56,657 nucleotides of DNA from Planctomycetaceae bacterium (GCA_039680605.1 JBDKTA010000006.1:1-56657), one strand, 5' to 3'. Numbered from the stretch's first letter, positions 1,636 through 19,659 are shown. Numbers and translations: made by a program. The notes: generated from the letters alone by a model not told the origin.

Positions 1636-1698
1636 TAGCGGCGGGGCTTGCCCCGGGCGGTTGTTTCCCCGGCGATCGCGGGGCAAGGTCCGCCGCTA
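1636..1698. repeat. Inverted repeat between convergent genes, possible bidirectional terminator
   Basis: The segment begins TAGCGGCGGGGCTTGCCCCG and ends with its near-complement (CGGGG-CAAGG-TCCGCCGCTA), with a GC-rich centre. It can form a long hairpin in the short gap between the sulfatase stop (1614) and the RND permease stop (1696), overlapping the latter by three bases. It resembles the REP-like palindromes elsewhere in the window. A termination role is inferred from position; no clear T-run follows on the plus strand. Confidence 0.5.
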
Positions 1699-4600: not shown

Positions 4601-4824
4601 GCGATGGTGCTGAACTGGCGCTCCAGCGGCGTGGCCACCGCCGCGGCCATCGTGCTCGGGCTGGCGCCGGGAAAGGTAGCACTGACCAGGATCGTCGGGA
4701 TGTCCACGTTGGGCAGGTCGCTGACGGGCAGTTGGCGATAGCCCATCACGCCCACCATCAAAAGACCGCCCATCAGCAGCGTGGTCATCACCGGTCGGCG
4801 GATGCATAGCTCGGGAATCGTCAT
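1696..4824 (-). CDS. RND efflux transporter permease (AcrB/MdtC-like)
   Basis: At 1042 residues this is the usual length of an inner-membrane RND pump that exports drugs or other small molecules using the proton gradient. The N-terminus (PELCIRRPVMTTLLMGGLL) is the first membrane helix. The family pattern of helix, large periplasmic domain, helix bundle, then a second half with the same order is visible. The GFVVDDAIVVLENI segment in the first bundle carries the adjacent Asp pair of the proton relay. GGIVGRLFREFG and LTPMLCSRFL are further family blocks. The start overlaps the adaptor stop by ATGA (4821-4824), so adaptor and pump are translationally coupled. No TolC-like outer-membrane factor is encoded nearby. 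The substrate cannot be read from the sequence. Confidence 0.95.
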   Translation of the reverse strand: MTIPELCIRRPVMTTLLMGGLLMVGVMGYRQLPVSDLPNVDIPTILVSATFPGASPSTMAAAVATPLERQFSTIAGLSSMSSSSQLGSTQITLQFDLDRDIDAAAQDVQAAISQAAAQLPPDLPNPPAYRKVNPADQPILYLALTSPTLPMYALDEYGQTLMGQQISTLPGVAQVLVFGSQKYAVRVRVDPPALAAMDLAIEDVVQAVRSGNVTLPTGVLYGPHKAFTIEASGQLNDAQAYRPLVVAYRGGAPVRLQDVADVFDSVENDKTAAWYCSPSSGQQRSVILAVQRQPGTNTVAVADAVRNLLPTFEKQLPRAVSLHMLYDRSESIRVSADEVQVTLVLVLVLVVLVIFLFLRSIAATLVASTALPASIIGTFAAMYLLDYSLDNLSLMAITLSVGFVVDDAIVVLENIVRHMEMGKPRLQAALEGSREIGFTIISMTLSLAAVFLPVLFMGGIVGRLFREFGVVIAVAVLISGMVSLTLTPMLCSRFLRPPQSGRRNRLYAWIERVFDRMAAFYGWTLRPVLRHKAATVLVSLAVLAGTFWLFAALPKGFLPSEDRSQIFCYVQAGEGISYQSMFAHQQAVNAEILRNPNVESFMSSAGGRGGFGALNTGFIFIRLTPIDQREQSADEIVQVFRRSLSTIPGVEVFPQNPPIISVGGQLTKSQYQYTLQSPDTSELYRYAQQLEARLSVHPGFRDVTSDLQIKNPQVNVQIDRDKARVYGVNAQQIETALFNAYASRQISTILAPNNQYQVVIEAQIPFQQNPDALRWIYIRSDNGQLVPLTAVTTVTEGAGPLTINHLGQLPSVTISFNLPAGAALGPAVAVVQELSADLPATVTTSFQGTAQAFQASQSGMLLQVLMAVLVIYIVLGVLYESFVHPVTILTALPFAGFGALAALMLTGTELSLYAFVGIIMLVGLVKKNGIMMIDFAVEAQRSEGKSPRDAIYDACLIRFRPIMMTTISTLAAGIPVALGTGVGADSRRPLGIAVVGGLIFSQTLTLYVTPVFYLLFERLRNFRRRKDEIDHRGSEQNETNEN

Positions 4825-6020
4825 TGCGACGCTCCCGGGCCACTTGCCGCGGGCGCCGTCGCCGGTCGTGTGGCCGCTTCATCGGGCATTATCATGGGCC
4901 TGATCTGCACCGCAGCGCCCTCCTCCAGGCGCAGTTGCCCGTCAACGACAACGGTCTGGCCTCCGGAGAGGCCCCTGGCGATGACGCTTTGCTCCCCTTG
5001 GGTTCGGTCAACCTCGACGAGTTGCATGTGGGCCTTGAGATCGTTGTCGATGACGAAGACGAACGTGCCGCGCTGGGAGGTCTGGACCGCATGCGAGGGA
5101 ATCAGCACCGCGCCGGTCTGGGTCGTCAGCGTCAGCGCCACTTCGACAAACTGCCCCGGCCAGAGGCGGTTGTCGTCGTTGGCGAAGGTCCCCTTGAGCA
5201 GGATGGTTCCGGTGGCGACATCCACGGCGTTGTTGATGAAGGTCAGCGCCCCCCGCGATGGCACGTGGTCGCGCCCGCCCACGTACGCCTCCAGCGGCAG
5301 AGGCCCGCGCAGACGCTGAAAGCGACGCACGTCGTCGAGATAGCGCTGCGCCAGCGTGAAGTTCACGTAAATCGGGTGGATCTGATTGAGCGTCAGCAAT
5401 GCCGTCTCGTTGGCCCGCACGACATTGCCGGTCTTGGTCGTCAGCTCGCCAGCGACACCCTCGATGGGGGCGTGGATATAGCTGTAGGCCAGTTGAAGCT
5501 CCGCCGCTTCGACGGCGGCCTTGTCGACGGCCACCGTGGCGGCGGCGGTGCGCGCCAGCACTCTGGCGGTGTCGAGTTCGTTGGGGGAGGCGGCGCCGCC
5601 TTCGGCGGCATTTTCAACTCGCTGCAACTCTCGCCGGGCGAACTCGAGCCGACCGGTGTCTCTGGCCAACGCCGCCTTCGCCTGGGCCAGCGCCGCCTGC
5701 GCCGGGCGCGGGTCGATCACGAACAAAAGCTGCCCCTTGCCCACCAGCACCCCCTCGTCGACATCCACTTGCACGATCGGCCCGGCGATCTGCGAGCGGA
5801 TCACCACCGACGAGTACGCCGTGACCGTGCCAATATTGCGAGCCTCCACAGGCGTGTCGGCCACGACGACCTTGGCGACGCTGACCGGCACCGCCGGCGG
5901 GGCCTGGGGCGGTGCCTGGCGGCCGGAGCAACTCGCCGCTAAGGTCAAAGCCACCACGGCGGCGACAAGGGCCCGGCCCTGCGGTCTGGAGCCTCGGCGG
6001 CAGCGTTCTTTGGCATCCAT
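4821..6020 (-). CDS. RND efflux periplasmic adaptor (HlyD/AcrA family)
   Basis: This is the membrane-fusion subunit linking the pump encoded just downstream to an outer-membrane channel. The frame is open further upstream, but MDAKERCRR at 6020 is the sensible start: AAGAGG lies seven bases before it, and a basic segment plus hydrophobic stretch follow. That stretch ends in LAASCSG, a lipobox, so the protein is likely a lipoprotein. The family order follows: a beta-barrel/lipoyl half (SQIAGPIVQVDVDEGVLVGKG), a helical hairpin (AQAKAALARDTGRLEFARREL...), then the second lipoyl half (YIHAPIEGVAGELTTKTGN) and the barrel. The C-terminus ends in a Thr/Ala/Pro tail. It overlaps the permease gene by 4 bp. 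Confidence 0.93.
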   Translation of the reverse strand: MDAKERCRRGSRPQGRALVAAVVALTLAASCSGRQAPPQAPPAVPVSVAKVVVADTPVEARNIGTVTAYSSVVIRSQIAGPIVQVDVDEGVLVGKGQLLFVIDPRPAQAALAQAKAALARDTGRLEFARRELQRVENAAEGGAASPNELDTARVLARTAAATVAVDKAAVEAAELQLAYSYIHAPIEGVAGELTTKTGNVVRANETALLTLNQIHPIYVNFTLAQRYLDDVRRFQRLRGPLPLEAYVGGRDHVPSRGALTFINNAVDVATGTILLKGTFANDDNRLWPGQFVEVALTLTTQTGAVLIPSHAVQTSQRGTFVFVIDNDLKAHMQLVEVDRTQGEQSVIARGLSGGQTVVVDGQLRLEEGAAVQIRPMIMPDEAATRPATAPAASGPGASQ

Positions 6021-6186
6021 AGAAACCTCTTGGTATCTTAGGCGTTCCGGCGCCCGATGGAGTCGCCGCCGATGCTGCCGCGCGAATCGGAAAATAATAA
6101 AAAAACAAAATTCTTCTTCCCTCAGCAGCGTCTTCTTGAAAGCCTGTCTCATGGCACGACCCCATAGAGATGGGATGGAGAATGCA
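6021..6186. promoter_or_regulatory. Divergent promoter region between RND genes and the CsgG-like operon
   Basis: This 166-bp gap separates two divergent operons and is the only room for their promoters. It is markedly AT-rich around 6080-6120 (runs of A and T) against a GC-rich background. A small hairpin (CCCAT-AGAG-ATGGG, 6162-6175) sits just before the GGAG (6177-6180) used by the plus-strand gene at 6187. I could not assign -35/-10 boxes with confidence. A shared regulator is possible but not shown. Confidence 0.4.
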
Positions 6187-7071
6187 ATGAGAATATCGAT
6201 CTGCTTTGCTGTACTGGCCCTGGCCCCTTGTGCCTGGGGACAAGCCGCCGCGACCCGGCCTGCCGGCAATGCCGCCAGCGCCCCAGACCCCAAGGCGGCC
6301 CCGCGCCATACCGTCTTTGCCGCGCCGTTTACCAACGAAACCGCTCAGGAACAATATGACCCCGCCGCCGCAGGCCTGGCAGACCTGATCGGTGTGCTGC
6401 TGGCCCAGCAGGAGCATATCGTGGTCGTCGAGCGGCAGCGCCTCGATGTCCTGGCCAAGGAACAGGTCCTTATGTTGAGAGGCCTCAGCGGCAAGACTTA
6501 TGCCGTTGCGGCCGGCAAGCTGTTGGCCGCTGATTGCGTGCTGGTCGGACGCGTGTTCCTGGTCGACACGAAGCTCACAGTCAGCGCGCAGTTGATCCAT
6601 ATCGCCACAGACCGCGTGCTGGCGGCCGACCAGATCGCCTGCCGCCCCTCGGACCTGCCCGAGGCGAGCCTTCAGATGGCCTTGCGCCTGGCCAAGCAGC
6701 TTTCGCTGCCGCTGCCGGCGATCGATTTGTCCCACGTCGACAAGTCTCCCATCGCGTCGCTGCATTTCTGCAAGGCCTTGGGCGACTTCTACTCCGGCAA
6801 CCTCGACTCGGCGATCATGCAGCTCATGCGGACCATCGACCTGGACCCGGACTTCGTCGAGGCCTACTACTGGGCCGGCCTGAGCTACAGCCGCCTGCGC
6901 GAGGATGCCGCCGCAGTTATTGAGTGGCAGGAGTTCCTCAAGCGCTGGCCAGACGCCCCACAAGCCCCGGCCGTGCGCGAGCTGCTGGCGGCTGCCAACA
7001 AGCGCGCCGCCGCTTCCGGCGTCCCGCGCCTCGGGCCGACCACCCGTCCAGCCACCGGCGAGGGCAGGTAA
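6187..7071 (+). CDS. Secreted CsgG-like/TPR protein, first gene of the A/B operon
   Basis: The 294-residue product has a clear signal peptide (MRISICFAVLALAPCAWGQ). After an Ala/Pro linker comes a CsgG/TolB-N-like domain: FAAPFTNETAQEQYD, then GLADLIGVLLAQQEHIVVVERQ and a 'LL.ADCVLVGRVFLVDTKLTVSAQLIH' strand pair. The same fold recurs in the next genes. The C-terminal part (about 205-270) is TPR-like (FCKALGDFYSGNLDSAIMQL, DPDFVEAYYWAGLSYSRL). I chose ATG 6187 over the in-frame ATG at 6175 because GGAG lies at 6177-6180. The stop is immediately followed by the ATG of the next gene (TAAATG), indicating an operon. CsgG-like domains occur in outer-membrane curli secretion and in lipoproteins of unknown role; the exact function is not known. 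Confidence 0.75.
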   Translation: MRISICFAVLALAPCAWGQAAATRPAGNAASAPDPKAAPRHTVFAAPFTNETAQEQYDPAAAGLADLIGVLLAQQEHIVVVERQRLDVLAKEQVLMLRGLSGKTYAVAAGKLLAADCVLVGRVFLVDTKLTVSAQLIHIATDRVLAADQIACRPSDLPEASLQMALRLAKQLSLPLPAIDLSHVDKSPIASLHFCKALGDFYSGNLDSAIMQLMRTIDLDPDFVEAYYWAGLSYSRLREDAAAVIEWQEFLKRWPDAPQAPAVRELLAAANKRAAASGVPRLGPTTRPATGEGR

Positions 7072-9840
7072 ATGAAGACCGGGTGGCCTGGATTTGCAGG
7101 CATGATGGTGATGCTGCTGGCGTCTGTGGCGGCGCGAGGGGCTCCGCTCAACGTGGCGGTCTTCAACTTTCAAATGAAGGAAGGCCCCCAGCAGTGGCAG
7201 TGGCTGGCGAAAGGACTGGCGGATCAGATCACCACCGACTTCACCCGCAGCCGCCAACTGACCGTTATCGCGCGCGATGAGATGCAACTGGTCGCCGCCA
7301 AGGTCAAGTGGGCTCCGGAACTGGCCGGGCGGGACCAACATGCGATGGATGTCATCCGCAAGGCCCTCAAGATCGACCGCCTCGTCACCGGCGTCTACAG
7401 TGAACGGGGCGGACAGATCGAGATCATCGTGCAGGTGCTGGATGTCGGCGGCCGGCGCGAGCTGATGCGCAAGACCTTCTCCGGCCCGGCGAAGGACGTG
7501 CTCAGACTCCAGAAGGACATTTCCGCGGCTCTGCTGGGCTGGTTTTCAGGCGTGCCGGCTTCGGAAATTTTGCCGCACCTGCCCGTCTGGTGCCGCAGCG
7601 TCGAAGCGGGCAAACTGCTCTACGAGGGCCTGCACCTTTTTGATCAAGGACAGTACCCCGAGGCTTGGCTGATGTTTCGACAGGCTTTCCATAACGATCC
7701 CTCGTATATGGAAGCGCGGTACTGGGTAGCGAGAATGTATTACTTCATGGAGCGCTACGAGCACGCCCAGCGCGCCTACGAGGGCTTCGTCTATGAAGCC
7801 GCCGGCCATCCGCGCCTGGGCGACGCCATCAAGGAATACCTCCACGCCTGCGAGAAGAGCGCCGCGGTAACGCCGCAGGCGATGCTGGACCGCCACGCCT
7901 GGTTCATCGAGCGGTTCGGCAAGGTGGCCGTCTACAACGAATTGCTCATCGATGGCGCCGTCCCGCTGTCGGCGTGGCTCAAGACCCGCTCAGCGATGAT
8001 CCTCAGCAAGCGAGGTAATTTCGCCGCCGCCGTCGCGCTGGCCTCACAGGCCTGCGGCGAACTTCGCGGGGGAAATCGCTTTCGCTCCAGAGCCGACGCC
8101 ATGTCTTTCCTGATTGGCACCGACAGTGCCTACCGTCACAATCTTCAGACGGGTAAGGTCCTGGTGCCCCAAGGGCTGGAGGAACATTATAACTACCGGG
8201 GGACAACCTGTACGATCCGCTTTGAGCCCGGCCAGACTGAAACGACCCTGTACTACAAGCCCAAGAGAGAATCTCGCCTCGAATGCGCCGATGGCTACTA
8301 TTACGACGCGTATTTCTGGCACTTCCTGCTGGCGCCCGATGGCAAAGTCTTCACGAAGATCACGCTGCGGCCATTGCTGGAGGGTAGCGAAGGCCAGATG
8401 GGCGCATGCCTTCACAAGCATTATTTCGGCGACAGTGGCACCGTCCATACGAGGAAGCTCACATCGGCCATGCGGAGGGGCCTGGTCTTTGAGAATGTTC
8501 CCCGCAGCGGCATTTTTCACGTTCATTACTGGGTGCTTCCGGCGGATCGCCAGCGAGACCCGCACTGGACCTGCAGCGGCGTGCGGGTCGAGGCGGAATT
8601 TGAAGATGTCGGAGTACACGGAAGCATCGATATCCAGGCCGACACGGCTGAAGTTTTCCGCGTGCTGGTCGACGGGCTCGCCGGACGCAACGGGCCGGGG
8701 CTAATCGGGCTGGTGCCGCCGGGCCGGCATGAGCTGACCGTTCTGCCCAACGCAATGCATCAGCCGCTCAAGATACCAGTCGACGTGCAGGCCGGCAAGA
8801 CCACCACAGTACACGTCTCGCTGGACTGGGCCCCGGGCTCACCGTGGGCACAATGGAAATCCGGTACCCTGATCGGTCGGGATTATCCGCCCGTGGTGGC
8901 CACACCTATCGTGACCGACGACGCGCCGTCCATACAGGCGGACGCCCACGCGATTCGTGTTGTCTGGTCGTATCTGGGTGACCTCTGGATGTCTCAGAGC
9001 AGCGACGGCAAGAACTTCTCGCGGCCGGCAATGCTGCCCTTGCCGGTCTCCACGGGCTGGATGGAAATGCGCCCACAGTGCCTTCGCGACGAGACCGGTA
9101 GATTTGTGTTGATCTTCCTGTCCGACCGCCAAGGCCAGCACCAGCAGCGCCCGTATGCCTGCTGGTCTCGCGACGGCGTTCACTGGTCCCGGCCGTCCAT
9201 GGTTGTCGATCGGACGGTCCAGGTCTTCCACCTGATGCAGGACCACCGCGGAATGTTCATCTGGACCGACTGCGGACCCGACGAGATCACCATCATGGAG
9301 TCGCGCGACAGCTATCAATGGAACGTGCTCTGCCGTTTGCCCATCAAAGGCGAGCCGCAGGCGGTCAGCCTGGTCGAGCACGGCCCAAGTTATGAGTTGT
9401 ACGTTTCGCAGCTCTATAACCCTTCCGAAGCCAAGAACTGGGAGACGGGCCAGACGGAGATTATCTGCTATCGCAGCAAAAACCTCCGCGAGTGGACGGG
9501 GCCGGTGGAGTTGGCCAAACACTCCAAAACTGGCATGGCTTCGCTGACGGCCGTCACAACGGCTCAAGGGCCGTTGGTCCTGTTCAGCCGCACCACTACG
9601 ACGAAGGAACGCTCGTTCATCCAGCTTTTCCGTCACGGTGACACTGGTTGGGCTGCGTCGGCACCCCAGCACGGAATGGCGGGATGGGCTTCTGGAATGG
9701 GGTATCACCCGCGTTGGGGCCACCTCATCGCCTGGAAGTCCGAAAACGGGATTCAGTTCCCCGCCGAGCACTCGGGGGTGTATTTGATGATGGGAAAGAG
9801 CGTCGAGCCCTTGTTTGGCAAAAAGGAGAGTGGTAGATGA
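7072..9840 (+). CDS. Module gene A1: CsgG-like + TPR + PEGA-like + sialidase-like propeller protein
   Basis: This 922-residue exported protein has several domains. Residues 1-23 are a signal peptide. Residues 25-165 are CsgG-like (NVAVFNFQMKEGPQQWQWLA, QITTDFTRSRQLTVIARDEMQ). Residues about 180-265 are TPR-like helices (FDQGQYPEAWLMFRQAF, YWVARMYYFMERYEHAQRAY). Then comes a beta-rich stretch of unknown type, a PEGA-like domain at about 526-585 (VLVDGLAGRNGPG, VPPGRHELTVLP), and a C-terminal part at about 620-915 with Asp-box-like units (SSDGKNFSRP, SRDGVHWSRP) as in sialidase-type beta-propellers. It begins one base after the previous stop and overlaps the next gene by ATGA. The gene at 12201 is its paralogue with the same domain order. 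The function is unknown; I see no obvious catalytic sialidase arginine triad. Confidence 0.72.
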   Translation: MKTGWPGFAGMMVMLLASVAARGAPLNVAVFNFQMKEGPQQWQWLAKGLADQITTDFTRSRQLTVIARDEMQLVAAKVKWAPELAGRDQHAMDVIRKALKIDRLVTGVYSERGGQIEIIVQVLDVGGRRELMRKTFSGPAKDVLRLQKDISAALLGWFSGVPASEILPHLPVWCRSVEAGKLLYEGLHLFDQGQYPEAWLMFRQAFHNDPSYMEARYWVARMYYFMERYEHAQRAYEGFVYEAAGHPRLGDAIKEYLHACEKSAAVTPQAMLDRHAWFIERFGKVAVYNELLIDGAVPLSAWLKTRSAMILSKRGNFAAAVALASQACGELRGGNRFRSRADAMSFLIGTDSAYRHNLQTGKVLVPQGLEEHYNYRGTTCTIRFEPGQTETTLYYKPKRESRLECADGYYYDAYFWHFLLAPDGKVFTKITLRPLLEGSEGQMGACLHKHYFGDSGTVHTRKLTSAMRRGLVFENVPRSGIFHVHYWVLPADRQRDPHWTCSGVRVEAEFEDVGVHGSIDIQADTAEVFRVLVDGLAGRNGPGLIGLVPPGRHELTVLPNAMHQPLKIPVDVQAGKTTTVHVSLDWAPGSPWAQWKSGTLIGRDYPPVVATPIVTDDAPSIQADAHAIRVVWSYLGDLWMSQSSDGKNFSRPAMLPLPVSTGWMEMRPQCLRDETGRFVLIFLSDRQGQHQQRPYACWSRDGVHWSRPSMVVDRTVQVFHLMQDHRGMFIWTDCGPDEITIMESRDSYQWNVLCRLPIKGEPQAVSLVEHGPSYELYVSQLYNPSEAKNWETGQTEIICYRSKNLREWTGPVELAKHSKTGMASLTAVTTAQGPLVLFSRTTTTKERSFIQLFRHGDTGWAASAPQHGMAGWASGMGYHPRWGHLIAWKSENGIQFPAEHSGVYLMMGKSVEPLFGKKESGR

Positions 9841-12197
9841 ACCGTCTGATTTGTGCCGTTGCGGTGTCAATTTTCATCACCGGGATAATCCACGCTCAGC
9901 AACCTTTGCGATGGGGCAGTGAAAAAGAACTGGTCGGGATGCTCTGCCAAGGTCCCCCTGCGCAGCGGCATATGGCGTACGAAGCGTTACTGTTTACGCT
10001 TCCGTCTGCCCGGAGCGCCATCACACAAGCTCTTGAGAACAAGCAGTTGCCGCCTCAGGCAAGGCGTCGACTGACCTTTCTGGCAGATTTCGGCGAACTG
10101 CCGGCTACGGGCAGTGTGTACCGAAACGGCAAAAATCCTTCGCCCGAAGGCGAATTGCAGAATGGTGATATTATCACGAAGTTTGACGAAGACGGCACCC
10201 TGTCCGGCTGGCGCAAAGGCAAGGATATTGGGGTCCTGGCCAAGGTGGAGATTCCACAGGTGCTGCACCTGCTGAAGCCTTGGCCTGACCATCATTACTT
10301 CTACACCCGGTACGGTCATCAGGGATCATGGTCTGGCGATGTAGCCGCAGTTCTGGCCGGGGGGGCGAAGCCAGGCGCCCCGCGCATTGCTGTCTACCAG
10401 AAGGCATGGAAAGAAGGCTGCCGTGATCCCCTCGTGGCGGCGGCGTGGCTGGAAGAACTTTGGAACTGCTGGATGATGGACGAGGCAGCCAAGGTCATCG
10501 CCGCCCTGCCCGCCCAATTCCATGATAAATATCCGGGGGGATACGGAACGTTTCAGTTGCAGAAACAGATCCTGCTATGCCGAATGGACAGCCAGCCGAG
10601 GCAGCAGGTGCAGACGGCCCTGTCAGAACAGCTTAAAGCGGCATCGGAGGCCGACGCTTGGCTTGGCCGGGCGATACTGCTGCAGCTTCAATCCAACATG
10701 CTGCTTGGGGGACCGCCTCAGCAGATCCGTGAGTTCTGGCAGACAAATATCGGCGATCTGCTTGCGCTGCCTCGCCAGACTGAGGATGCCCTGGGTGCCG
10801 CGGTCCTCTGTCTGGCCGCGGGAGAAGGGCCTTTTACTGCCGCCAAGCCTTTTGCACCGTTAGGAGATATGTTTGCGGGACGGATTAATATACCGGTTGA
10901 TTACGACCGTCTGGAACCCGGTAGCGCCCCGCCGATGTATCCAATGATGGCAGTGGCCGATCCCCTCATCCATCGCTGCAACGCTATTGAAAAGCCCATC
11001 GATGGTTTCTTCCTTGAGTTTTTCGGCGTCCCCCGGCGCGTTGAATGGGAGTTCCGGCCCGAGATGTTTCCGGCTCCGGGGGAGCCCGACGCCAGCGCGC
11101 TGTGCATCAGGGCCAGCCAAGGCAGGAACGCAATCCTGCTGAGACTGCTCAGGTCCGGCGCGATGGAGATCTTAACCACCGCCAGCGGCGGCCGGTACAA
11201 CGCCACCATTCCACTGATTCGTAATCGCAAGGAATGGCTGAAAGTCAGCATCGACCTGATGCCCCGGCGCCTGCAGGTGAATCTTAACGGGCAACGGGTA
11301 TGGACTTGTCCGGCCGCAGATTGGCCCCAACAAGGGCAATTCCAACTTGTGCTTCAGGGCTCCTACTGTTCGGGCTCAGCGCGGAACCTTCGCTTCTACC
11401 GCTATATAGACCGGCCGGTCGACAATTCAGCTCTTGAGCGGCTGGCGCTGGCGCACGAGGAGGCCATTCGCAGAGGTGAGGTGGAGCAAGCCGAGGCGGC
11501 GCTGGCCAAACTGGACGCGATGATGCGCCCGTTCCCGGCCTTTGATCCAGTCCGTCAAGGATACGCTTCGGACATGGAGCTTTTCCGCAAGATCATGGGG
11601 GATGGGCTGAGCATCACTGGCGAGCGCACCCTGGAGTCAACGCACCGCCTGCTTACAGGCAAGTGGAAAGCTGATGGGATCTGGATCGTTCCACAGCCCG
11701 ACCCTCGGGACAAGCAACATTTCGCTTTGTTCAAAACGCCGGGGCCCGACGACATTGAAATAACAGGCGTTATTGACGCCCAAGACGCAGGCGCAGGGTC
11801 TTATCTATATCTCAGCCCCCAAAGCACATTCGCCGACAACAACCAGGCTCTGGCTTTTCATCCCGACGCGGGCAGTGTCATACTTCTGCCGGGCAAGAAT
11901 CGTCGCCTCGCGAAAGTGGATTTCTCAACCCCGCTGCCTTTCTGTATCCGGATCAAGGCAGACCAACTGGCGGCCTTCATCCGCTTTGGCAGCAAGCCTG
12001 ACCTGATCCTCCGGCGGCAGGTTCGCAGCGGCAGACATGTCCAAATCTATACCGCTAGTCCCGCAGGTAAACCCATCCGCATCGGCAATCTCAAGATCCG
12101 GGCGTTGCCCAAGGACACGCCGATCGATGCCCCGGTGAAAATGCCCACAGCAGAGCCCGACACTCCTTCGAGCCAGCCCCAACGGAAGGTATGGTAG
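9837..12197 (+). CDS. Module gene B1: exported HEAT-like/PDZ-like/concanavalin-like protein
   Basis: This 786-residue protein starts with a signal peptide (MNRLICAVAVSIFITGIIHAQ) and has AAAAGGAG upstream. Residues 25-85 are helical and HEAT-like. GELQNGDIITKFDEDGTL (about 102-120) resembles the ligand-loop part of a PDZ domain. A long helical region follows. Around 395-520 a beta-rich segment (VEWEFRPEMFP, LKVSIDLMPRRLQVNLNGQRV, ARNLRFYRY) looks like a LamG/concanavalin-fold domain, and a second such segment lies near 605-760 (LLTGKWKADGIWIVPQP). The gene overlaps A1 by 4 bp and ends 3 bp before A2. The paralogue at 15206 shares the order. I do not recognise a named family; the domains are inferred from motifs. 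Confidence 0.65.
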   Translation: MNRLICAVAVSIFITGIIHAQQPLRWGSEKELVGMLCQGPPAQRHMAYEALLFTLPSARSAITQALENKQLPPQARRRLTFLADFGELPATGSVYRNGKNPSPEGELQNGDIITKFDEDGTLSGWRKGKDIGVLAKVEIPQVLHLLKPWPDHHYFYTRYGHQGSWSGDVAAVLAGGAKPGAPRIAVYQKAWKEGCRDPLVAAAWLEELWNCWMMDEAAKVIAALPAQFHDKYPGGYGTFQLQKQILLCRMDSQPRQQVQTALSEQLKAASEADAWLGRAILLQLQSNMLLGGPPQQIREFWQTNIGDLLALPRQTEDALGAAVLCLAAGEGPFTAAKPFAPLGDMFAGRINIPVDYDRLEPGSAPPMYPMMAVADPLIHRCNAIEKPIDGFFLEFFGVPRRVEWEFRPEMFPAPGEPDASALCIRASQGRNAILLRLLRSGAMEILTTASGGRYNATIPLIRNRKEWLKVSIDLMPRRLQVNLNGQRVWTCPAADWPQQGQFQLVLQGSYCSGSARNLRFYRYIDRPVDNSALERLALAHEEAIRRGEVEQAEAALAKLDAMMRPFPAFDPVRQGYASDMELFRKIMGDGLSITGERTLESTHRLLTGKWKADGIWIVPQPDPRDKQHFALFKTPGPDDIEITGVIDAQDAGAGSYLYLSPQSTFADNNQALAFHPDAGSVILLPGKNRRLAKVDFSTPLPFCIRIKADQLAAFIRFGSKPDLILRRQVRSGRHVQIYTASPAGKPIRIGNLKIRALPKDTPIDAPVKMPTAEPDTPSSQPQRKVW

Positions 12198-12200
12198 ACG

Positions 12201-15200
12201 ATGCTCCGGCGCGTGACTGAACGATCTGTGCCCAGCGTCCTTGGCTGCATGATGCTGCTGTGGGCAGTATCGGCCGCCCAAGGGGCCCCGCAGAATGTGG
12301 CAGTGTTTAATTTCCAGATGAAACAGGGGCCCCAGCAGTGGCAGTGGCTGGAAAAGGGCCTGGCCGACCAGATCGCCACCGACTTTTGCCAGAGCCGCCG
12401 GATCAACGTCATCGCCCGCGACGAAATGCAGTTGGTGGCCAGCCGCCTCAAGTGGGCGCCGGAGATGGCCACGCGGGACAGGCAGGCAATGTCCGCCATC
12501 AACGCCCGGCTGAAGCTGGAGTGGCTGGTGACAGGAACCTACAGCATCGAAGGCCAGAAGATCGAGATCGTCGCGCAGGTCATTAATGTGGCCGACCGCC
12601 GGGAGATGGCCCGCAAGACCGTTTCGGGGCCGGCCAAGGAAGTGCTGGGCCTGCAGAAGAGCCTTTCGGCCGAGTTGTTGAGTTTCTTCTCCGGCGCGCC
12701 GGCGGAACAGATTCTGCCGCACCTGCCCCTCTGGTGCCGCAACCTCCAAGCCAGCGCCACCCTCTACGAGGGCGTGCATCTGTACGACCTGGGGCAATAC
12801 GCCGAGGCGTGGCTGAAGTTCCGCCAGGCGCTTCGCAACGACGGTTCGTACATCGAGGCGCGGTACTGGATCGCCCGGATGTACTACTTCATGGACCGCT
12901 ACGATCACGCTCGCCGGGCGTACGACGAGTTCTTTTACCACGGCCGCGGCCACCCGCGCGCCGGAGACGCGATGCGCGAGTATCTGCACACGTACGAGAA
13001 GCTCGGCACGCCCCCGCGCGAGATGATCGCCCTGTACGAAGACTTCCAGAAGCGATTCCCCAAGGTGCTGATCTTTAACGAACTCGATTCCGACGGCCCC
13101 ATCGAGGCCGACATCTGGCTGCGGGTGCGCATCGCCCAGGCCCGGTCGCTGACGGGAGACAGCGCGGCGGCCGCCCGTGGCGCGGCCGGCGCTATCCAGC
13201 AGCTCCGCCGGCTGCAGAACTGGGACGAGTACGACCACGGCGCCGACCGGACGGCGTACCGGCTGGCGCTGTCGGAGGCGAACCTGCACTACGGTCAGAC
13301 AGGGCGGAACGTGCTTTCCCCGCCGTTGATGCTGCTGGCGCCGCTCGTGCCGCCGCGGCGCCTGGAACAGCCCCAGTACCCGCGGAGACACATCGTCCAG
13401 TTCGACCCGGGCAAGGACGAGATGATCTGCCAGTGGCCGCGGAACATGAGCCTGGCCCCGATCAGGCGCGGCGAACAGGGTTCCTATCGATTTTTTAATG
13501 TGGGCAACCAATTGTGGGTCACGATGCTCCCCCAGAACGGCCAGCTTATCCGCAGCCTGACGGTGTACCCCATCGTGGACGAGCGCTATAGCCGTAAGCA
13601 GGCCCGCGTACACCTGGGCGTACACAGCGAGTATCCCTTCGATGCCGGTCAATCGTCGTACGTGCCACTGCAAGAGGCCATCGGCGCCGGCGTCACGGTC
13701 GACAATCTCCCCCGTCGCGGGATTCTGCACTTCAGCCTGGGAGTCTACCCGGAGAATATCCCCGGCCAATCCACGGCCGAGTTCCTCTTTCTGCAGAAGT
13801 ACCGGCTCAAGGCGCGAATCGAGAACATCGGCCCCCACGGGACGTTGGACGTGCAGTGCAGCACAACCGACCGATTCACAGTATATGTAGACGGCGAGGT
13901 CGGTCGGCGGGGCCCGGGGCGGGTCGACCTGCTCGCTTGCGGCCGGCACACGCTGACGTTTCGCCAAGATGGCGTGCTGGCGCCCCAGCAGATTCAAGCC
14001 GTCGTCACGCAAGGACAGGTGACGCCGGTAGCCGTGGCGCTGGACTGGGACAGGTCCGGGCCGTGGAAGAACTGGTCGCGCGGCGTGCGCGTCGGCGGCG
14101 ACTATCCTGCCGAAGTGGGCTCGCCGATCCGTGCCCAGGACGCACCGGCGATCCAGGCCGATGCCTCGGCGCTACGCATCGTTTGGCACTGCCAGGGCGA
14201 TCTGTGGATGTCCACCAGCGGCGACGGCGAACGCTTTTCGCCTCCGGCCCGGCTGCCCTTGCCCATCTCGACGGCCTGGACCGAGAGCGATCCACGTTGC
14301 TTCCGCGACGACAGCGGGCGGCTGATGTTGACGTTCCTGTCGGATCGCGAAGGGCAGCATCGCCCCAGGCCGTACGCCTGCTGGTCACGTGACGGGCTTC
14401 ACTGGTCGCGCCCGGCGATGATGGTGGACCAGACCATCGGCACATACGATGTATGCGCTGGCCATCGTGGCGGCATGGCGATGGCCTGGTTCGCGGCGCG
14501 CGGCCAGCAGCGCGGAGACGCAGGTCTGTGGAAGATCTGCATCGCCACGTCGCCAGAGGGGCTGGCCTGGCAGGAGAAGGCCCAACTGCCGCTGCCGGCG
14601 ATGGAGTCATTCTGGGTAAGCGACCTGCGCCTGATGCAGCGCCGCGGCGGCGGCTTTGAGCTGCTGGCGGCAATAATGTTCGGTCCGCTCACCAAGGTCT
14701 TGCGATGGGAGCTGGACGATCAATTCCATAGTCTTCGGCCCGTTCCCGACGTGCTGGCGTCATATCCCCAGCGCCTGGCGACGGCGCTGTCGCTGTCGGC
14801 GGATGAGGACGGGCTTGCGTTGGTGGCGGCGGCGCGCGGATCCGGTTGCCAATCCCGCATTCAATTGATGCGATGCGACGCCGAAGGCGTCTATCGGATA
14901 TCCCGCCCGCTCAAGAATGCCTGCTCGGGCCAGACCGCCTTATCATATCATCCCAGATGGGGATACATGCTGGCTTGGCAGGACACGGGGGACGATGACT
15001 TTTCACGCCGCGCGCAGGGCCCCTACTTCACCCGCAGCTCGAGCCTGGGCGATCTGATGGGGGCAGCGCCCCTCCGCTGCGACAGCCAATGGACGCACCC
15101 CCCGCGCGACGGGCTGTCCCACCAGATATGCTCGCCGCTGGAATACATCGATTTTACCGACTTGCTCCCCGAACCTCTGCAGCCTGCACGAACGAAAGCC

Positions 15201-15209
15201 AATCCATGA
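12201..15209 (+). CDS. Module gene A2: paralogue of A1 (CsgG-like + TPR + PEGA-like + propeller)
   Basis: The 1002-residue product is clearly related to A1 along its length. Shared blocks include NVAVFNFQMK.GPQQWQWL, the TPR block RYWIARMYYFMDRYDHARRAY, a PEGA-like domain at about 553-615 (VYVDGEVGRRGPG) and the C-terminal propeller-like part from about 650 (AIQADASALRIVW, SRDGLHWSRP). It is 80 residues longer than A1, with extra sequence in the middle beta-rich region and the propeller. The signal peptide is longer, MLRRVTERSVPSVLGC followed by a hydrophobic run. The stop overlaps the next start by ATGA. Base composition matches its neighbours, so the duplication looks old and local rather than recently acquired. 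Confidence 0.72.
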   Translation: MLRRVTERSVPSVLGCMMLLWAVSAAQGAPQNVAVFNFQMKQGPQQWQWLEKGLADQIATDFCQSRRINVIARDEMQLVASRLKWAPEMATRDRQAMSAINARLKLEWLVTGTYSIEGQKIEIVAQVINVADRREMARKTVSGPAKEVLGLQKSLSAELLSFFSGAPAEQILPHLPLWCRNLQASATLYEGVHLYDLGQYAEAWLKFRQALRNDGSYIEARYWIARMYYFMDRYDHARRAYDEFFYHGRGHPRAGDAMREYLHTYEKLGTPPREMIALYEDFQKRFPKVLIFNELDSDGPIEADIWLRVRIAQARSLTGDSAAAARGAAGAIQQLRRLQNWDEYDHGADRTAYRLALSEANLHYGQTGRNVLSPPLMLLAPLVPPRRLEQPQYPRRHIVQFDPGKDEMICQWPRNMSLAPIRRGEQGSYRFFNVGNQLWVTMLPQNGQLIRSLTVYPIVDERYSRKQARVHLGVHSEYPFDAGQSSYVPLQEAIGAGVTVDNLPRRGILHFSLGVYPENIPGQSTAEFLFLQKYRLKARIENIGPHGTLDVQCSTTDRFTVYVDGEVGRRGPGRVDLLACGRHTLTFRQDGVLAPQQIQAVVTQGQVTPVAVALDWDRSGPWKNWSRGVRVGGDYPAEVGSPIRAQDAPAIQADASALRIVWHCQGDLWMSTSGDGERFSPPARLPLPISTAWTESDPRCFRDDSGRLMLTFLSDREGQHRPRPYACWSRDGLHWSRPAMMVDQTIGTYDVCAGHRGGMAMAWFAARGQQRGDAGLWKICIATSPEGLAWQEKAQLPLPAMESFWVSDLRLMQRRGGGFELLAAIMFGPLTKVLRWELDDQFHSLRPVPDVLASYPQRLATALSLSADEDGLALVAAARGSGCQSRIQLMRCDAEGVYRISRPLKNACSGQTALSYHPRWGYMLAWQDTGDDDFSRRAQGPYFTRSSSLGDLMGAAPLRCDSQWTHPPRDGLSHQICSPLEYIDFTDLLPEPLQPARTKANP

Positions 15210-17806
15210 AGACCACGCCCGCATTTGCAGTACTGGCAATTCTTATTGCGGCGGTTTCCCCGGCAGCGGCCGGGCCGACCGCAGAGGAACTCGTGCAGCA
15301 ACTGCGCGCTCCCTCCTGGCGGGTGCGCCAAGCCGCACACGATCAGATTGCCGATTTAGGCGCAGCGGCAGAAGCATCGCTGAAAGCCTTTCTGGCGCAG
15401 AGCGCCTTACCTGTCGAGGCCCGCCAGCGGGCGACATGGCTTCTGGAGAGCCTGAAGGTTCCCCGCCGCGGGGCCGTCTGGAGGGTGCTGCTGGCGCCGG
15501 ATCAAGTCGTTACCACCGGCAAGGCCGCGCCGGACCCGCTGGGGCTGACGTGCGGAGACATCGCCATCGCTGTCGATGACAAGCCCATCACGTCCGCCGG
15601 CACGCTGGAACGTCTGATCTGCGACGGTGCTGCTGAGGCGACGCTTACCGTGTGGTCCCCCACGAAAGGAAAGCGACAGCTCCAGGGCGACTTCCGCCCG
15701 TACCTGCTAGGTTTCACGACGTGGCCCGACACGCTGGGCATGTTCGAACTTTACGCGAAAGAAGAGAAATGGCACGCGGCTGCGCTGCAGAGCCTGCAGG
15801 CGGTCGCAAAGAACGACCGGTCCAGTTTCCAGCAACTGCTCACCGACGGCTGCCGCGATCCGGTCGTCCTCTACCACTACCTGCTGACCAACCAGAATGC
15901 CGTGATCGAGGACATGGTCAAGGAGACGCTGTCACGGGTCAGCCGACCGGTGGGCGACTACCCGGGGGGACGGGTGCAATACGGGCTGCTTCCGGCCGAG
16001 GCGATCCTGTGGCGCATGAGGTTACGTATCTCCTCGGCCCAAGCCCCACAGGTGACCTCAGCAGGAGTGAATCCTCTGGCCAGGCGCGCGCCGGGCACAG
16101 ACCCTCGCGCGGCGGCTGTCATCGAAGCGCGGGCGTCGCTGTTCAAAGCCATTGCAGTAGCCCAGAACGCCAATGCCTGGCGGGCGATCGGCGTGCTGCG
16201 GGCACTGCAAGTCGACCTGGAGACGAACGTCAACGTCGCCCTGCAACTCTGGTCGCAATATGCGCCGGAGATCCTGAGCTATCCCGAAGTCGCGGACCTG
16301 ATGATGTACGATCTTGCGATGAAAGCCTATCTGAAGCTGGGGCCTGAAGCGGCCGCCCGCTTCGTGAACGCCCTGCCGGCAGGGCCCATCGGCGACCATC
16401 TCAAAAAGGTCTTCGCCACTACCGCCGCCCCCCCTGCCGCAAACCGACTCCAGCCGATGCTGATTGAAGACATCCTCTCCTCATATCCCGTAGCGTCGGC
16501 CGATTACGGTCAGGTCTGCAGCGAAGAGGTCCCGCTGCACTTGCAAACCCCCTGCCGCTATGAGGCGACTTTCGGGCCCGGGCCGCGGTGGCCCGCCGCT
16601 TGGGCAAACGCGTTCTTCGGCATTTTTGTCGCGACCGGAGAGGAACACGTCGAGCTTCGCCTGCGATGCAACGGCGCGGTGGACGTGTTCCAGAGCGACG
16701 GGGGCAAATCAAATCCCAAGGCCATGGCCGTCCTGCTGGTGGACGTCACACAGCCGCATACGCTGACGATCGATCTGTTGGACGATTCTGTGCGGGCAAT
16801 GATCGACGGGCTGGAGATCTGGTCGGGCCCGCGATCGAATCAGGCGGTCAATGCAGGAGCTGCCGCGCTGGGCGTGGAAACCTTACCCGCCAGCCATTCG
16901 GTCAAAGCCGGAACCGTTGCCATGGGCATCAGCCGGCAGATCACCCAGATGCGCACGTACCACTTTGCCGCCGGCGGCTTCGACAACCGGCAGATCGAGT
17001 CGCTTCACCAGGCCAGACGGCGGGCCCTGCTGGCAGGCGACATCGCCGGACTGACCACCGCCCAGCGCGAACTGGCTCAGCGCCTCAAAGCCGTTCCCTC
17101 TGCCGCCGCCCTGGTGGAACGAATGGAAGCGCAACTGCCGCTGTATCGCCAGGCGATGTCGCGCAAGGGGCTGGATCTGTATTCGGAAGAAGTCCTGTCA
17201 TTTGCGCGACGGTACGGCTCCGTCAGCGGCACCTGGCAGGTCAAGAACGGTTGGCTCCAAGTGCAAGGCCCTGGCGAGCAGAAACCGGGGCGAGCGCCCC
17301 GCGCTGCCGTTGTCATACCCCTGCCCATGCCCGCCGAGGTCGAAATCGTCGGCGTGCTCGACGCCCCAAACCCCGGAGGTCCCGCCTTTGTCGTGCGGTG
17401 GAACTGCGCCTGGGGTCAGGAAGGACCGAGCCTGCACATGAACTTCCCCGGCCGCAAACGCACTTTTGGCGGAATGGGCTTTGGCGGCATATCGAACTCG
17501 CAGATCGATTTCAAGACGCCGGTGCCTTTCTGCTTCCGTCACCACCAGCAGCATGGCCGTTTTTTCGCCCGAGACCGTCTGAACATCGCCGGGGGCGTGG
17601 ACGCGGGATTGATCCCCAACGGCGAATGGATGTCGATCGAGGCTTATGACCTGAGACAGGCGGGCCTGCGGGTGGCGAAACTGAACATCCGAAAGCGGGA
17701 CGGCGGGGAGTGCGACACGCCCTGCGTGCTTCCAGCGGTGGACGGCCAAAGCCCCGCCGACGACGGCACGCGCGGCGGAGGCAGTCCCAAGCGGCCGGAC
17801 TTCTGA
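15206..17806 (+). CDS. Module gene B2: paralogue of B1 (HEAT-like/PDZ/concanavalin-like)
   Basis: The 866-residue protein starts at the ATG (15206) overlapping the A2 stop and has a signal peptide (MKTTPAFAVLAILIAAVSPAAAG). Its HEAT-like repeat is clearer than in B1 (LRAPSWRVRQAAHDQIADLG, about 30-75). A PDZ-like domain follows (LGLTCGDIAIAVDDKPI, about 110-170), then a helical region including CRDPVVLYHYLL, which matches CRDPLVAAAWL in B1. Two beta-rich concanavalin-like segments come next (PHTLTIDLLDDSVRAMIDGL; VSGTWQVKNGWLQVQGPGE). The frame is open further upstream, but that part lies inside A2. It is the last gene of the operon; 17807-18014 downstream holds no recognisable gene or strong terminator. 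The function is unknown. Confidence 0.65.
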   Translation: MKTTPAFAVLAILIAAVSPAAAGPTAEELVQQLRAPSWRVRQAAHDQIADLGAAAEASLKAFLAQSALPVEARQRATWLLESLKVPRRGAVWRVLLAPDQVVTTGKAAPDPLGLTCGDIAIAVDDKPITSAGTLERLICDGAAEATLTVWSPTKGKRQLQGDFRPYLLGFTTWPDTLGMFELYAKEEKWHAAALQSLQAVAKNDRSSFQQLLTDGCRDPVVLYHYLLTNQNAVIEDMVKETLSRVSRPVGDYPGGRVQYGLLPAEAILWRMRLRISSAQAPQVTSAGVNPLARRAPGTDPRAAAVIEARASLFKAIAVAQNANAWRAIGVLRALQVDLETNVNVALQLWSQYAPEILSYPEVADLMMYDLAMKAYLKLGPEAAARFVNALPAGPIGDHLKKVFATTAAPPAANRLQPMLIEDILSSYPVASADYGQVCSEEVPLHLQTPCRYEATFGPGPRWPAAWANAFFGIFVATGEEHVELRLRCNGAVDVFQSDGGKSNPKAMAVLLVDVTQPHTLTIDLLDDSVRAMIDGLEIWSGPRSNQAVNAGAAALGVETLPASHSVKAGTVAMGISRQITQMRTYHFAAGGFDNRQIESLHQARRRALLAGDIAGLTTAQRELAQRLKAVPSAAALVERMEAQLPLYRQAMSRKGLDLYSEEVLSFARRYGSVSGTWQVKNGWLQVQGPGEQKPGRAPRAAVVIPLPMPAEVEIVGVLDAPNPGGPAFVVRWNCAWGQEGPSLHMNFPGRKRTFGGMGFGGISNSQIDFKTPVPFCFRHHQQHGRFFARDRLNIAGGVDAGLIPNGEWMSIEAYDLRQAGLRVAKLNIRKRDGGECDTPCVLPAVDGQSPADDGTRGGGSPKRPDF

Positions 17807-18014
17807 GACCACGACACCAGAAGATGGCGCGTGTATGTCTTCGCTGGCGGGTTGCGCTCTTTTGACGGATTTCGCGTGAACGAAATGTCCGATAAAAAGA
17901 CGATCTGCGTTGTCGCGCTGCTGGTGCCCGGGCGATTTTGGATTTCGCCTTGCCGGCGGGGCGGCTAGAATGACTCGGAATGTTTTCGGGACTGCAGTCA
18001 GCGAAAGGACGCTC

Positions 18015-18455
18015 ATGAATCTGCCGGAATACATCACGCACCAGGAAGTCCAGAGAGTCTGCAGGCAGTTGAAGATTCGCGACTGGACGGCCATCGCCGA
18101 CGGAAAGGTCGCTCTCGACGAAGCGCGGACCATCCTGGGCGAACTGCGCGTCGAAGAGCGGATCGACCCTGAGGACTTCCGCCGCGGGCTGGAAGTCGAG
18201 CTTGAACACGGAACGCGATTCCCCGACGCCAACGTCACCAACAACCACCCCATCCTGACGGGCAAGATCGTGCTGGCCCACCTCAAGGAAACGCTCGACT
18301 ATTACAGCCGCCTCGAGATCGCCGAACTCGAAGGCGACCTGATGAACTCGATCACGGCCGCCGGCGCCGCCAAGCTGCAGAACTACTACATGCGTCTTGC
18401 CCAGGCGCGTATCGAGCTGGCCCAGCGCGAAGCCCAGAAGCTTTCGAACGGTTGA
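18015..18455 (+). CDS. DUF5661-type protein
   Basis: This is a 146-residue soluble protein. The segment around GLEVELEHGTRFPDANVTNN and GKIVLAHLKETLDYYSRL matches what I know of the DUF5661 family, whose members share the 'ELEHG' and 'AHLKE..DYY' blocks. The start at 18015 has AAAGGA six bases upstream; the frame is open earlier without support. The C-terminal third is helical and charged (LQNYYMRLAQARIELAQREAQ). No biochemical function is known to me for this family. It sits between the A/B operon and the DHH gene, with a palindromic repeat behind it. Confidence 0.72.
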   Translation: MNLPEYITHQEVQRVCRQLKIRDWTAIADGKVALDEARTILGELRVEERIDPEDFRRGLEVELEHGTRFPDANVTNNHPILTGKIVLAHLKETLDYYSRLEIAELEGDLMNSITAAGAAKLQNYYMRLAQARIELAQREAQKLSNG

Positions 18456-18476
18456 CCCCTGTGGAGTGACCCCTGC

Positions 18477-18563
18477 GGAGTGCGGCGGCAGCAGCCGCTT
18501 TGGATGTTTTTGGCAACTCGATTCCCTTGCGCCTGCGAAAAACAACCAAAGCGGCAGCTACCA
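18477..18563. repeat. Imperfect copy of the palindromic element also at 53667
   Basis: The left end GGAGTGCGGCGGCAGCAGCC-GCTTTGG and right end CCAAAGCGGCAGCTACC are inverted repeats around a 40-base centre. Both ends match the arms of the element at 53667-53753, although the copy here is degraded. It fills the gap between the DUF5661 gene and the DHH gene, so any promoter of the latter must be in or next to it. Confidence 0.6.
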
Positions 18564-18588
18564 AAGGGCGATACTATTCCTTGATCCC

Positions 18589-19659
18589 ATGCGCCCAACC
18601 CAAACACTGCGGAAGCTGGCCGATCTGCGGAGCCTGCTGGCGGGCAAGTCCTCGCTGCTGATCGTCCTGCAGGACAACCCGGACCCTGACGCCCTGGCCG
18701 CGGCGATGGCGCTGCGCAAGCTCGCGCACCATCTGGGCGGCGTGCAATGCACGCTGGCCAGCGGCGGCAGCGTCGGACGCGCCGAGAACCGCGCCCTGGT
18801 GCGCTACCTCGACGCCAACGTCCGCCCCATCGAGCAGATCGAGACCTCCCGCTTCGACGTCATCGCCACCGTCGACACGCAACCGGGCCTGGGCAACAAC
18901 TCCCTGCCGGCGGGCATCGTGCCCCAGATCGTCATCGACCACCATCCCATCCACGACGAGACGCGCCGGGCACAGTTCTTCGACATTCGAAGCCGCTACG
19001 GCGCCTCCTCGACCATCCTGTGGGAATATATCCAGGCGGCCAACCTCACGCCCGAGCCGCCGCTGGCGACGGCGCTGCTGTACGGTATCCAGAGCGATAC
19101 GCAGGATTTCGGGCGCGAGGCGACGGCGGCCGACAAGCTGGCTTACGGCGACCTGTACCCCCTGGCCAACAAGCGCATCCTGGGCACCATCCAACGCGGC
19201 GAGGAACCGACGGAATACTATCGCGTGCTCGTGACCGCCCTGGCGGCGGCCAATCTGGCGGGCAACTGCATCTACAGCAATCTCGGGTCGGTAGACAATG
19301 TCGACATGATCGCCGAAGTGGCCGATCTGCTCCTTCGCCACGAGCGGGCGGACTGGTCACTGTGCTGGGGACATCACGATAATCGCATGCTGCTGAGTCT
19401 GCGCACGATTGCCCCCGACGGCCGTGCCGACGTCGTCATCCGCCACATCGTCCACCGCAAGGGCACCGGCGGCGGGCATCACAGCATGGCCGGGGGGCAG
19501 ATTTCCGTTGCGCCGCCGCAGACCTCGCAGGAGAAACTCGACCGCCTGATCGTGCGGCGTTTTCTGCATGCCACCGGCAACGAGAAGGCGCCCATCCAGA
19601 AACTGCTGCCGCAGACCGTCAGCCCGCTACGGGACGGGGCAGGCCCAGCAGGTCCATGA
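18589..19659 (+). CDS. DHH-family phosphoesterase (NrnA-like)
   Basis: This is a 356-residue DHH/DHHA1 protein. Expected activity is hydrolysis of short oligoribonucleotides or related phosphodiesters in the cytoplasm with Mn2+. Visible motifs are DNPDPDALAAA near the N-terminus, VDTQPG, VIDHHPI (the DHH signature) and, in the DHHA1 part, GGGHHSMAGG. The start chosen is ATG 18589, where homology begins; the upstream open frame lies in repeat DNA. It converges with the UDG gene, and the two 3' ends overlap by 41 bp. The exact substrate (nanoRNA, pAp or c-di-nucleotide) cannot be told. Confidence 0.85.
   Translation: MRPTQTLRKLADLRSLLAGKSSLLIVLQDNPDPDALAAAMALRKLAHHLGGVQCTLASGGSVGRAENRALVRYLDANVRPIEQIETSRFDVIATVDTQPGLGNNSLPAGIVPQIVIDHHPIHDETRRAQFFDIRSRYGASSTILWEYIQAANLTPEPPLATALLYGIQSDTQDFGREATAADKLAYGDLYPLANKRILGTIQRGEEPTEYYRVLVTALAAANLAGNCIYSNLGSVDNVDMIAEVADLLLRHERADWSLCWGHHDNRMLLSLRTIAPDGRADVVIRHIVHRKGTGGGHHSMAGGQISVAPPQTSQEKLDRLIVRRFLHATGNEKAPIQKLLPQTVSPLRDGAGPAGP

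Follow-up and report, generated by a model that had tools for sequence, protein, structure and literature searches.

A planctomycete operon of putatively exported CsgG-like, TPR, and sialidase-fold proteins as the predicted output half of a split ECF sigma-factor system

The described systems closest to the locus analyzed here are the regulons of ECF sigma factors with membrane anti-sigma factors, such as RpoE-RseA (PMC8103513), the TolB protein of Tol-Pal, the CsgG/LpoB/FlgO group, and glycoside hydrolases with propeller folds. As in ECF regulons, a two-domain sigma factor is encoded here with a putative membrane partner adjoining it, and a putative CGTC-type -10 element is found both before the sigma gene itself and before the target genes (for the latter, at rank 30 in a matrix scan). 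Unlike in those regulons, the targets are CsgG-like, TPR, and propeller proteins for which no published description was found. The largest of these proteins include a family herein referred to as A, which resembles TolB in that an N-terminal alpha/beta domain, broadly of one class with that of TolB, is followed further on by a beta-propeller. However, residues 24-154 of A1 match the TolB model TIGR02800 only weakly (19.8 bits against a cut-off of 343.15), the propeller is sialidase-like, and TPR and a beta-sandwich lie in between. Two other families, L and L0, show matches to CsgG in its N-terminal part, with L0 also weakly resembling LpoB and A weakly matching FlgO, but the C-terminal half of CsgG is unmatched and L is fused to TPR. 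The A propeller shares its fold and Asp-box-like SxDxxxW repeats with GH33 sialidases, GH93 arabinanases, and GH130/GH43 enzymes, but has neither the FRIP motif nor an active site conserved across several blades. The single parts are of known kinds (ECF regulon, CsgG-like domain, TPR, and sialidase fold), and their combination appears to be new: no publication with this gene set, and no paper on CsgG or curli together with ECF sigma factors and Planctomycetes, was found in the literature searched, outside which most subscription journals lie.

The analyzed DNA, herein referred to as the window, is a stretch of 56,657 nucleotides from a Planctomycetaceae bacterium (GCA_039680605.1 JBDKTA010000006.1:1-56657). 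Five genes, L-A1-B1-A2-B2, all on the plus strand, occupy positions 6187-17806 (Table 1). A first-pass annotation had described them as an operon with alternating A and B genes behind a small CsgG-like leader, all five encoding signal peptides. The ORF coordinates confirm this layout, with no spacing between L and A1 (0 bp), ATGA overlaps at A1/B1 and A2/B2, and 3 bp between B1 and A2. The leader likewise proved to be CsgG-like (Pfam CsgG, E = 1.4e-7, above the gathering score), and a hydrophobic, signal-peptide-like N-terminal stretch is visible by eye in each of the five proteins. Transcription of L-A1-B1-A2-B2 as one unit is plausible. Scans of the operon region for sigma-70 promoters and terminators gave no matches above chance (11 terminator-like sites in 5900-18700, with 10.0 in shuffled sequences).

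Table 1. Genes and the promoter-like site of the operon, and the genes of the predicted control half on contig C61
Feature	Position	Strand	Length	Description
ECF-type promoter-like site	6107..6133	+		AAAATT-N15-GCGTCT; 53 bp from site end to L start codon
L	6187..7071	+	294 aa	Predicted exported; CsgG/LpoB-like half-domain + TPR
A1	7072..9840	+	922 aa	CsgG/TolB-N-like + TPR/helical + beta-sandwich/PEGA-like + predicted six-bladed sialidase-fold propeller
B1	9837..12197	+	786 aa	Predicted HEAT-like + PDZ-like + helical repeats + two beta jelly-rolls
A2	12201..15209	+	1002 aa	A1 paralogue
B2	15206..17806	+	866 aa	B1 paralogue
C61 sigma			188 aa	51% identity to G005; Sigma70_r2 9.6e-15, Sigma70_r4_2 1.7e-12
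C61 AS			298 aa	Putative membrane anti-sigma; hydrophobic segment
C61 U			328 aa	
C61 L0			352 aa	56% identity to G005; Pfam CsgG 6.9e-14, above gathering score

Several neighboring features of the window were also recorded. A sulfatase gene is located at 130-1614. Genes that by eye resemble those for an RND-type efflux pump with its adaptor of the membrane-fusion kind occupy 1696-6013 on the minus strand; they are divergent from L and share with it one intergenic region, which contains the promoter-like site. A role in anti-phage defense was rejected, as PADLOC matched none of the five.

The CsgG match of L covers only positions ~4-104 of the 210 in the model, and the remainder of the protein is TPR (TPR_11, 4.8e-6). 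L is also a homologue of the first 270 residues of A (E = 7e-7), and both proteins contain a CsgG/FlgO/TolB-N-like half-domain followed by TPR; L is therefore no unrelated leader. Orthologues of L, with 49-61% identity, were found in G005, G028, G025, G032, G070, G036, and G046. No canonical lipobox was seen by eye in the CsgG-like L and L0 proteins, and neither a second L orthologue nor a third A gene was found elsewhere in the genome of the window.

In the relatives, L and A belong to a larger cluster. The genes sigma-AS-U-L0-L-A are contiguous in G005, G028, G025, and G046; in these four, L0 is a CsgG-like protein of ~360-390 aa, fused to L in G025. G032 and G036 share this order as far as L, at a contig end. 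The arrangement led to a search of the window's genome for sigma-AS-U-L0, and contig C61 proved to carry all four as one group (L044 8180-11718; Table 1). The sigma factor has regions 2 and 4 only, as does that of G005. AS, which adjoins sigma in the relatives, contains a hydrophobic segment and matches no Pfam family; it is a putative anti-sigma factor by its position and this segment. Both halves of the cluster lie inside long contigs, so the split is real rather than a contig-end artefact. Gene order thus indicates that an ECF sigma-factor cluster has been divided, with the operon as one half and the control half located elsewhere in the same genome.

Several side observations concern the genes at and around L0, L, and A. 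A 1125-aa protein with an N-terminal CsgG-like region (Pfam, 2e-5) is encoded on C61 ~3.5 kb downstream of sigma-AS-U-L0 (L044 15171-18548) and possibly replaces L/A there. In G020, a sigma-AS-L0 cluster is followed directly by a gene for an 1817-aa protein (L071 2102-7555) with two CsgG-like regions and then a long stretch rich in repeats, ending in a PDZ-like part; here another output takes the place of L-A. In UBA12270, L0 and L are fused in a 667-aa open frame (L061 5836-7839), which suggests that the two products work together. In the Verrucomicrobia MAG-85 (L063 4071-8499), A precedes an L that shows, at its C-terminus, a weak match to a right-handed beta-helix, with no sigma cluster in view.

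The upstream regions suggest a further link between the two halves. The site preceding L contains the CAAAATTCTTC block and GCGTCT, both identical to those of a C61 site with the same hexamers that precedes the sigma gene (L044 8142-8167); the spacer between the hexamers is 14/15 bases long. The pattern AAAATTN{14,17}GCGTCT occurs exactly twice in the 5.23 Mb genome, before sigma and before L, and not at all in the control; it was written after both of these sites were known, and about half a chance match is expected genome-wide from base composition by our own estimate. Upstream of sigma in G005, G028, G032, G046, G025, and G020, a [GC]ARTTT-like block is followed, after 14-15 bases, by a CGTCTAA-like one. 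A matrix built from these six genomes, with the window's own genome excluded, was run on the window, on positions 1-20000 of C61, and on the loci of the relatives. The C61 sigma site ranked first among 39,920 positions, and the window site ranked 30th among 113,234 positions, with a modest score. In the 22.7 kb locus of G005, the two best sites precede sigma and the cluster ending in B-A. The second of these promoter-like sites is located before genes for a BNR/PEP-CTERM protein and three FGE-sulfatase-like proteins, two of them with PEP-CTERM, and this series runs into B-A (L058 1266-7262). The letters of the -10 element agree with published ECF promoters, CGT being the usual ECF -10 (PMC8103513) and CGTCTAAH the sigmaE -10 of Neisseria meningitidis (PMC2893595). 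These similarities are suggestive of a sigma-dependent promoter in the window, and they support a probable sigma control common to both halves.

The AlphaFold2 model of A1 (pLDDT 83, pTM 0.83) contains an alpha/beta domain (26-160), helical repeats (to 360), a beta-sandwich (379-512), and a propeller (590-918) mostly at pLDDT >80. TPR was also found in A1 by Pfam, and the region ~515-585 is PEGA-like by eye only, with no match to Pfam PEGA. The propeller aligns with sialidases and GH93 arabinanases with Z ~25-26 and rmsd 3.2-3.8 over ~295-305 residues, and in the model it has the six blades of the GH33 sialidase fold. The fold-search lists were filled by this propeller and hence say nothing firm on the N-terminal domain. 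The B1 model is weak (pLDDT 59, pTM 0.48). Within it, residues 363-525 resemble ConA-like glucanases and galectins (Z 13-14), a second jelly roll is found at 615-756, and there are weak sequence matches to DegQ-PDZ and ARM; B would be a mosaic of a HEAT-like N-terminus and PDZ- and lectin-like parts. Both A and B are probably large exported sugar-binding proteins.

Full-length B was found in no genome other than the window's, G005, and G007, and scanning the other A loci with a profile in six frames revealed no B. BLAST did not relate B to the C-terminal extensions of the fused A proteins of G028, G025, and G046, which speaks against an origin of B as such an extension split off from A.

The first-pass annotation had proposed a tandem duplication of an A-B unit, with A2 resembling A1 over its whole length and B2 resembling B1 in domain order, and this proposal is well borne out. 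A1 aligns with A2 throughout, at 41% identity (687 bits). B1 and B2 align over their full length with 22% identity (105 bits, E = 3e-27) and, by this similarity, are true but very diverged paralogues. In a tree of 17 A proteins from nine genomes, A1 and A2 are sisters (98/98), and the B-adjoining A of G005 is next to this pair (100/99). In the B tree, B1 and B2 are sisters with respect to the B proteins of G005 and G007 (96/94). The two trees are concordant, and the simplest history would include one A-B pair in an ancestor common with G005 and a tandem duplication of that pair in the lineage of the window. The B tree has long branches and the minimum of four rows, so the evidence for the duplication is good rather than final.

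Proteins of the A family are sparsely distributed. Among 60 related genomes, strong matches were found in only five others (G005, G028, G025, G016, and G046), and in a phylum-wide sample in 2 of 392 genomes, including the window's own. A scan of genome contigs with A1 as a single sequence gave no match; an alignment-based profile was required, and it detected A in MAGs of Phycisphaerae/Planctomycetota and in one Verrucomicrobia MAG. Nine genomes have both L and A (the window's genome, G005, G028, G025, G046, G016, G070, ARS65, and the Verrucomicrobia MAG-85), and in each of them one or more A genes adjoin an L; L is the older, widely conserved partner of A. In a second group of G005, with the order L-A-X-A, X is a 605-aa exported protein with a PD40 propeller and TPR. 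In other relatives, the C-terminus of A is extended by TPR, by ankyrin-like repeats, or by a beta-rich stretch of 400 aa. Being found beside B, beside X, or in such fusions, A has several partners. In Phycisphaerae AS06rmzACSIP_597 (L064 9800-14044), the C-terminal array of A looks like ankyrin repeats, which are uncommon in exported proteins. In Phycisphaeraceae ARS65, A occupies two overlapping frames (L066 10686-13333, with frames 10686-11879 and 11876-13333), reflecting either a frameshift or a real split into N-terminal and propeller genes.

From gene order and upstream sites, we consider it highly probable that Phycisphaerae-type planctomycetes have an envelope system under an ECF sigma factor and that this operon forms its output half. 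The regulon taken together with a function of its products as non-catalytic, glycan-binding exported scaffolds is an evenly balanced call. In the proposed mechanism, an envelope or surface-polymer signal would release sigma from AS, and the freed sigma would transcribe both halves, i.e., the C61 genes and the window operon. L0, L, A, and B would be exported and docked together at the envelope through the TPRs and CsgG/LpoB/TolB-N-like domains that L0, L, and A contain. The A propeller, a fold assigned by modeling, and the lectin-like jelly rolls of B would then form a scaffold or surface coat that binds glycan without catalysis; the A-B pair, once present and then duplicated in this lineage, would provide two variants of the binding module.

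Other explanations give the same genes different roles. The first-pass annotation had suggested that each A works with its own B, and in the strict form of this idea A and B are obligate partners, each A-B being a two-protein complex and the duplication having produced two complexes. The concordant trees, the possible translational coupling through the ATGA overlaps, and the adjacency of B and A in G005, where their order is reversed and the pair is located just upstream of the sigma gene, all agree with it, as does the fact that all three A proteins of the window/G005 clade (A1, A2, and one of G005) adjoin B. These three are, however, the only ones among 17, G007 has B without any A, and B has diverged far more than A (22% against 41% identity), unlike in a tightly co-evolving pair. 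Duplication as a unit and adjacency within one clade therefore find support, whereas a paired system as a general rule does not, since A was largely found without B across the genomes, an outcome that the annotation itself had named as evidence against pairing. We regard obligate pairing as rather unlikely. A little less credible is a role of L, L0, and A as sensors of the sigma switch, monitoring the envelope through their CsgG/TolB-N-like and propeller domains and acting on AS. They are encoded with sigma and AS, and a tolB-annotated gene encodes, according to PMC3397946, the anti-sigma of an ECF sigma factor in Thermoanaerobacter tengcongensis; but A has been multiplied, fused to ankyrin, TPR, or other extensions, and moved away from sigma and AS in the window's genome, which fits an effector better than a single sensor.

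The A protein could also be a glycosidase that is active outside the cell and belongs to the sialidase/GH43/GH93/GH130 propeller class, in an operon degrading polysaccharide. The fold match (Z ~26), the sulfatase gene of the window, a weak sequence match to GH130 (7fip, E = 7e-4), and E665, which is invariant in 16 of 16 A proteins and lies near the GH130 VEDPR stretch in the 7fip alignment, are in line with such an activity. In contrast, the [FYW]RIP motif with the first active-site arginine is absent in 16 of 16 A proteins, and, judged by column conservation, the GH33 Arg triad and Tyr/Glu nucleophile are not conserved across the blades. The conserved polar residues (D637, D645, E665, D673, R677, R686, and Y695) cluster in blades 1-2, and blades 3-6 have no conserved acidic or arginine residue except at Asp-box-like positions. 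This pattern resembles one binding patch rather than the active site of a sialidase. The missing sialidase residues may leave another catalytic activity to A, with E665, R677, R686, and Y695 invariant, and yet we judge the glycosidase explanation unlikely. Least probable by far is that L and L0 form a CsgG-like outer-membrane secretion pore exporting A and B or fibers. Both have Pfam CsgG matches, but these cover the first half of the model only, and L continues into TPR; identity with the curli pore was rejected for the same half-match. No curli subunit was found among the genes scanned with Pfam, which covered the short neighboring genes in part. The non-catalytic output half of a sigma regulon remains our preferred reading.

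The analysis turns an anonymous operon of hypothetical proteins into a testable regulon. Sigma and its targets are contiguous in the relatives and apart here, which makes the prediction direct: the C61 sigma factor would drive the window operon. The A proteins form an exported family of Phycisphaerae and one Verrucomicrobia MAG that combines a predicted sialidase fold, lacking the sialidase signature, with rapidly changing partners. More speculatively, this could be an envelope machine of PVC bacteria, in which an ECF sigma factor controls a CsgG/TolB-N-TPR-pseudo-sialidase family A with exchangeable partners and add-ons (B, PD40 propeller, ankyrin, TPR, and beta extensions), as a diversifying system of surface recognition or coating with no described counterpart. 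The A family is relevant to how the envelope and surface of planctomycetes work, a poorly known field.
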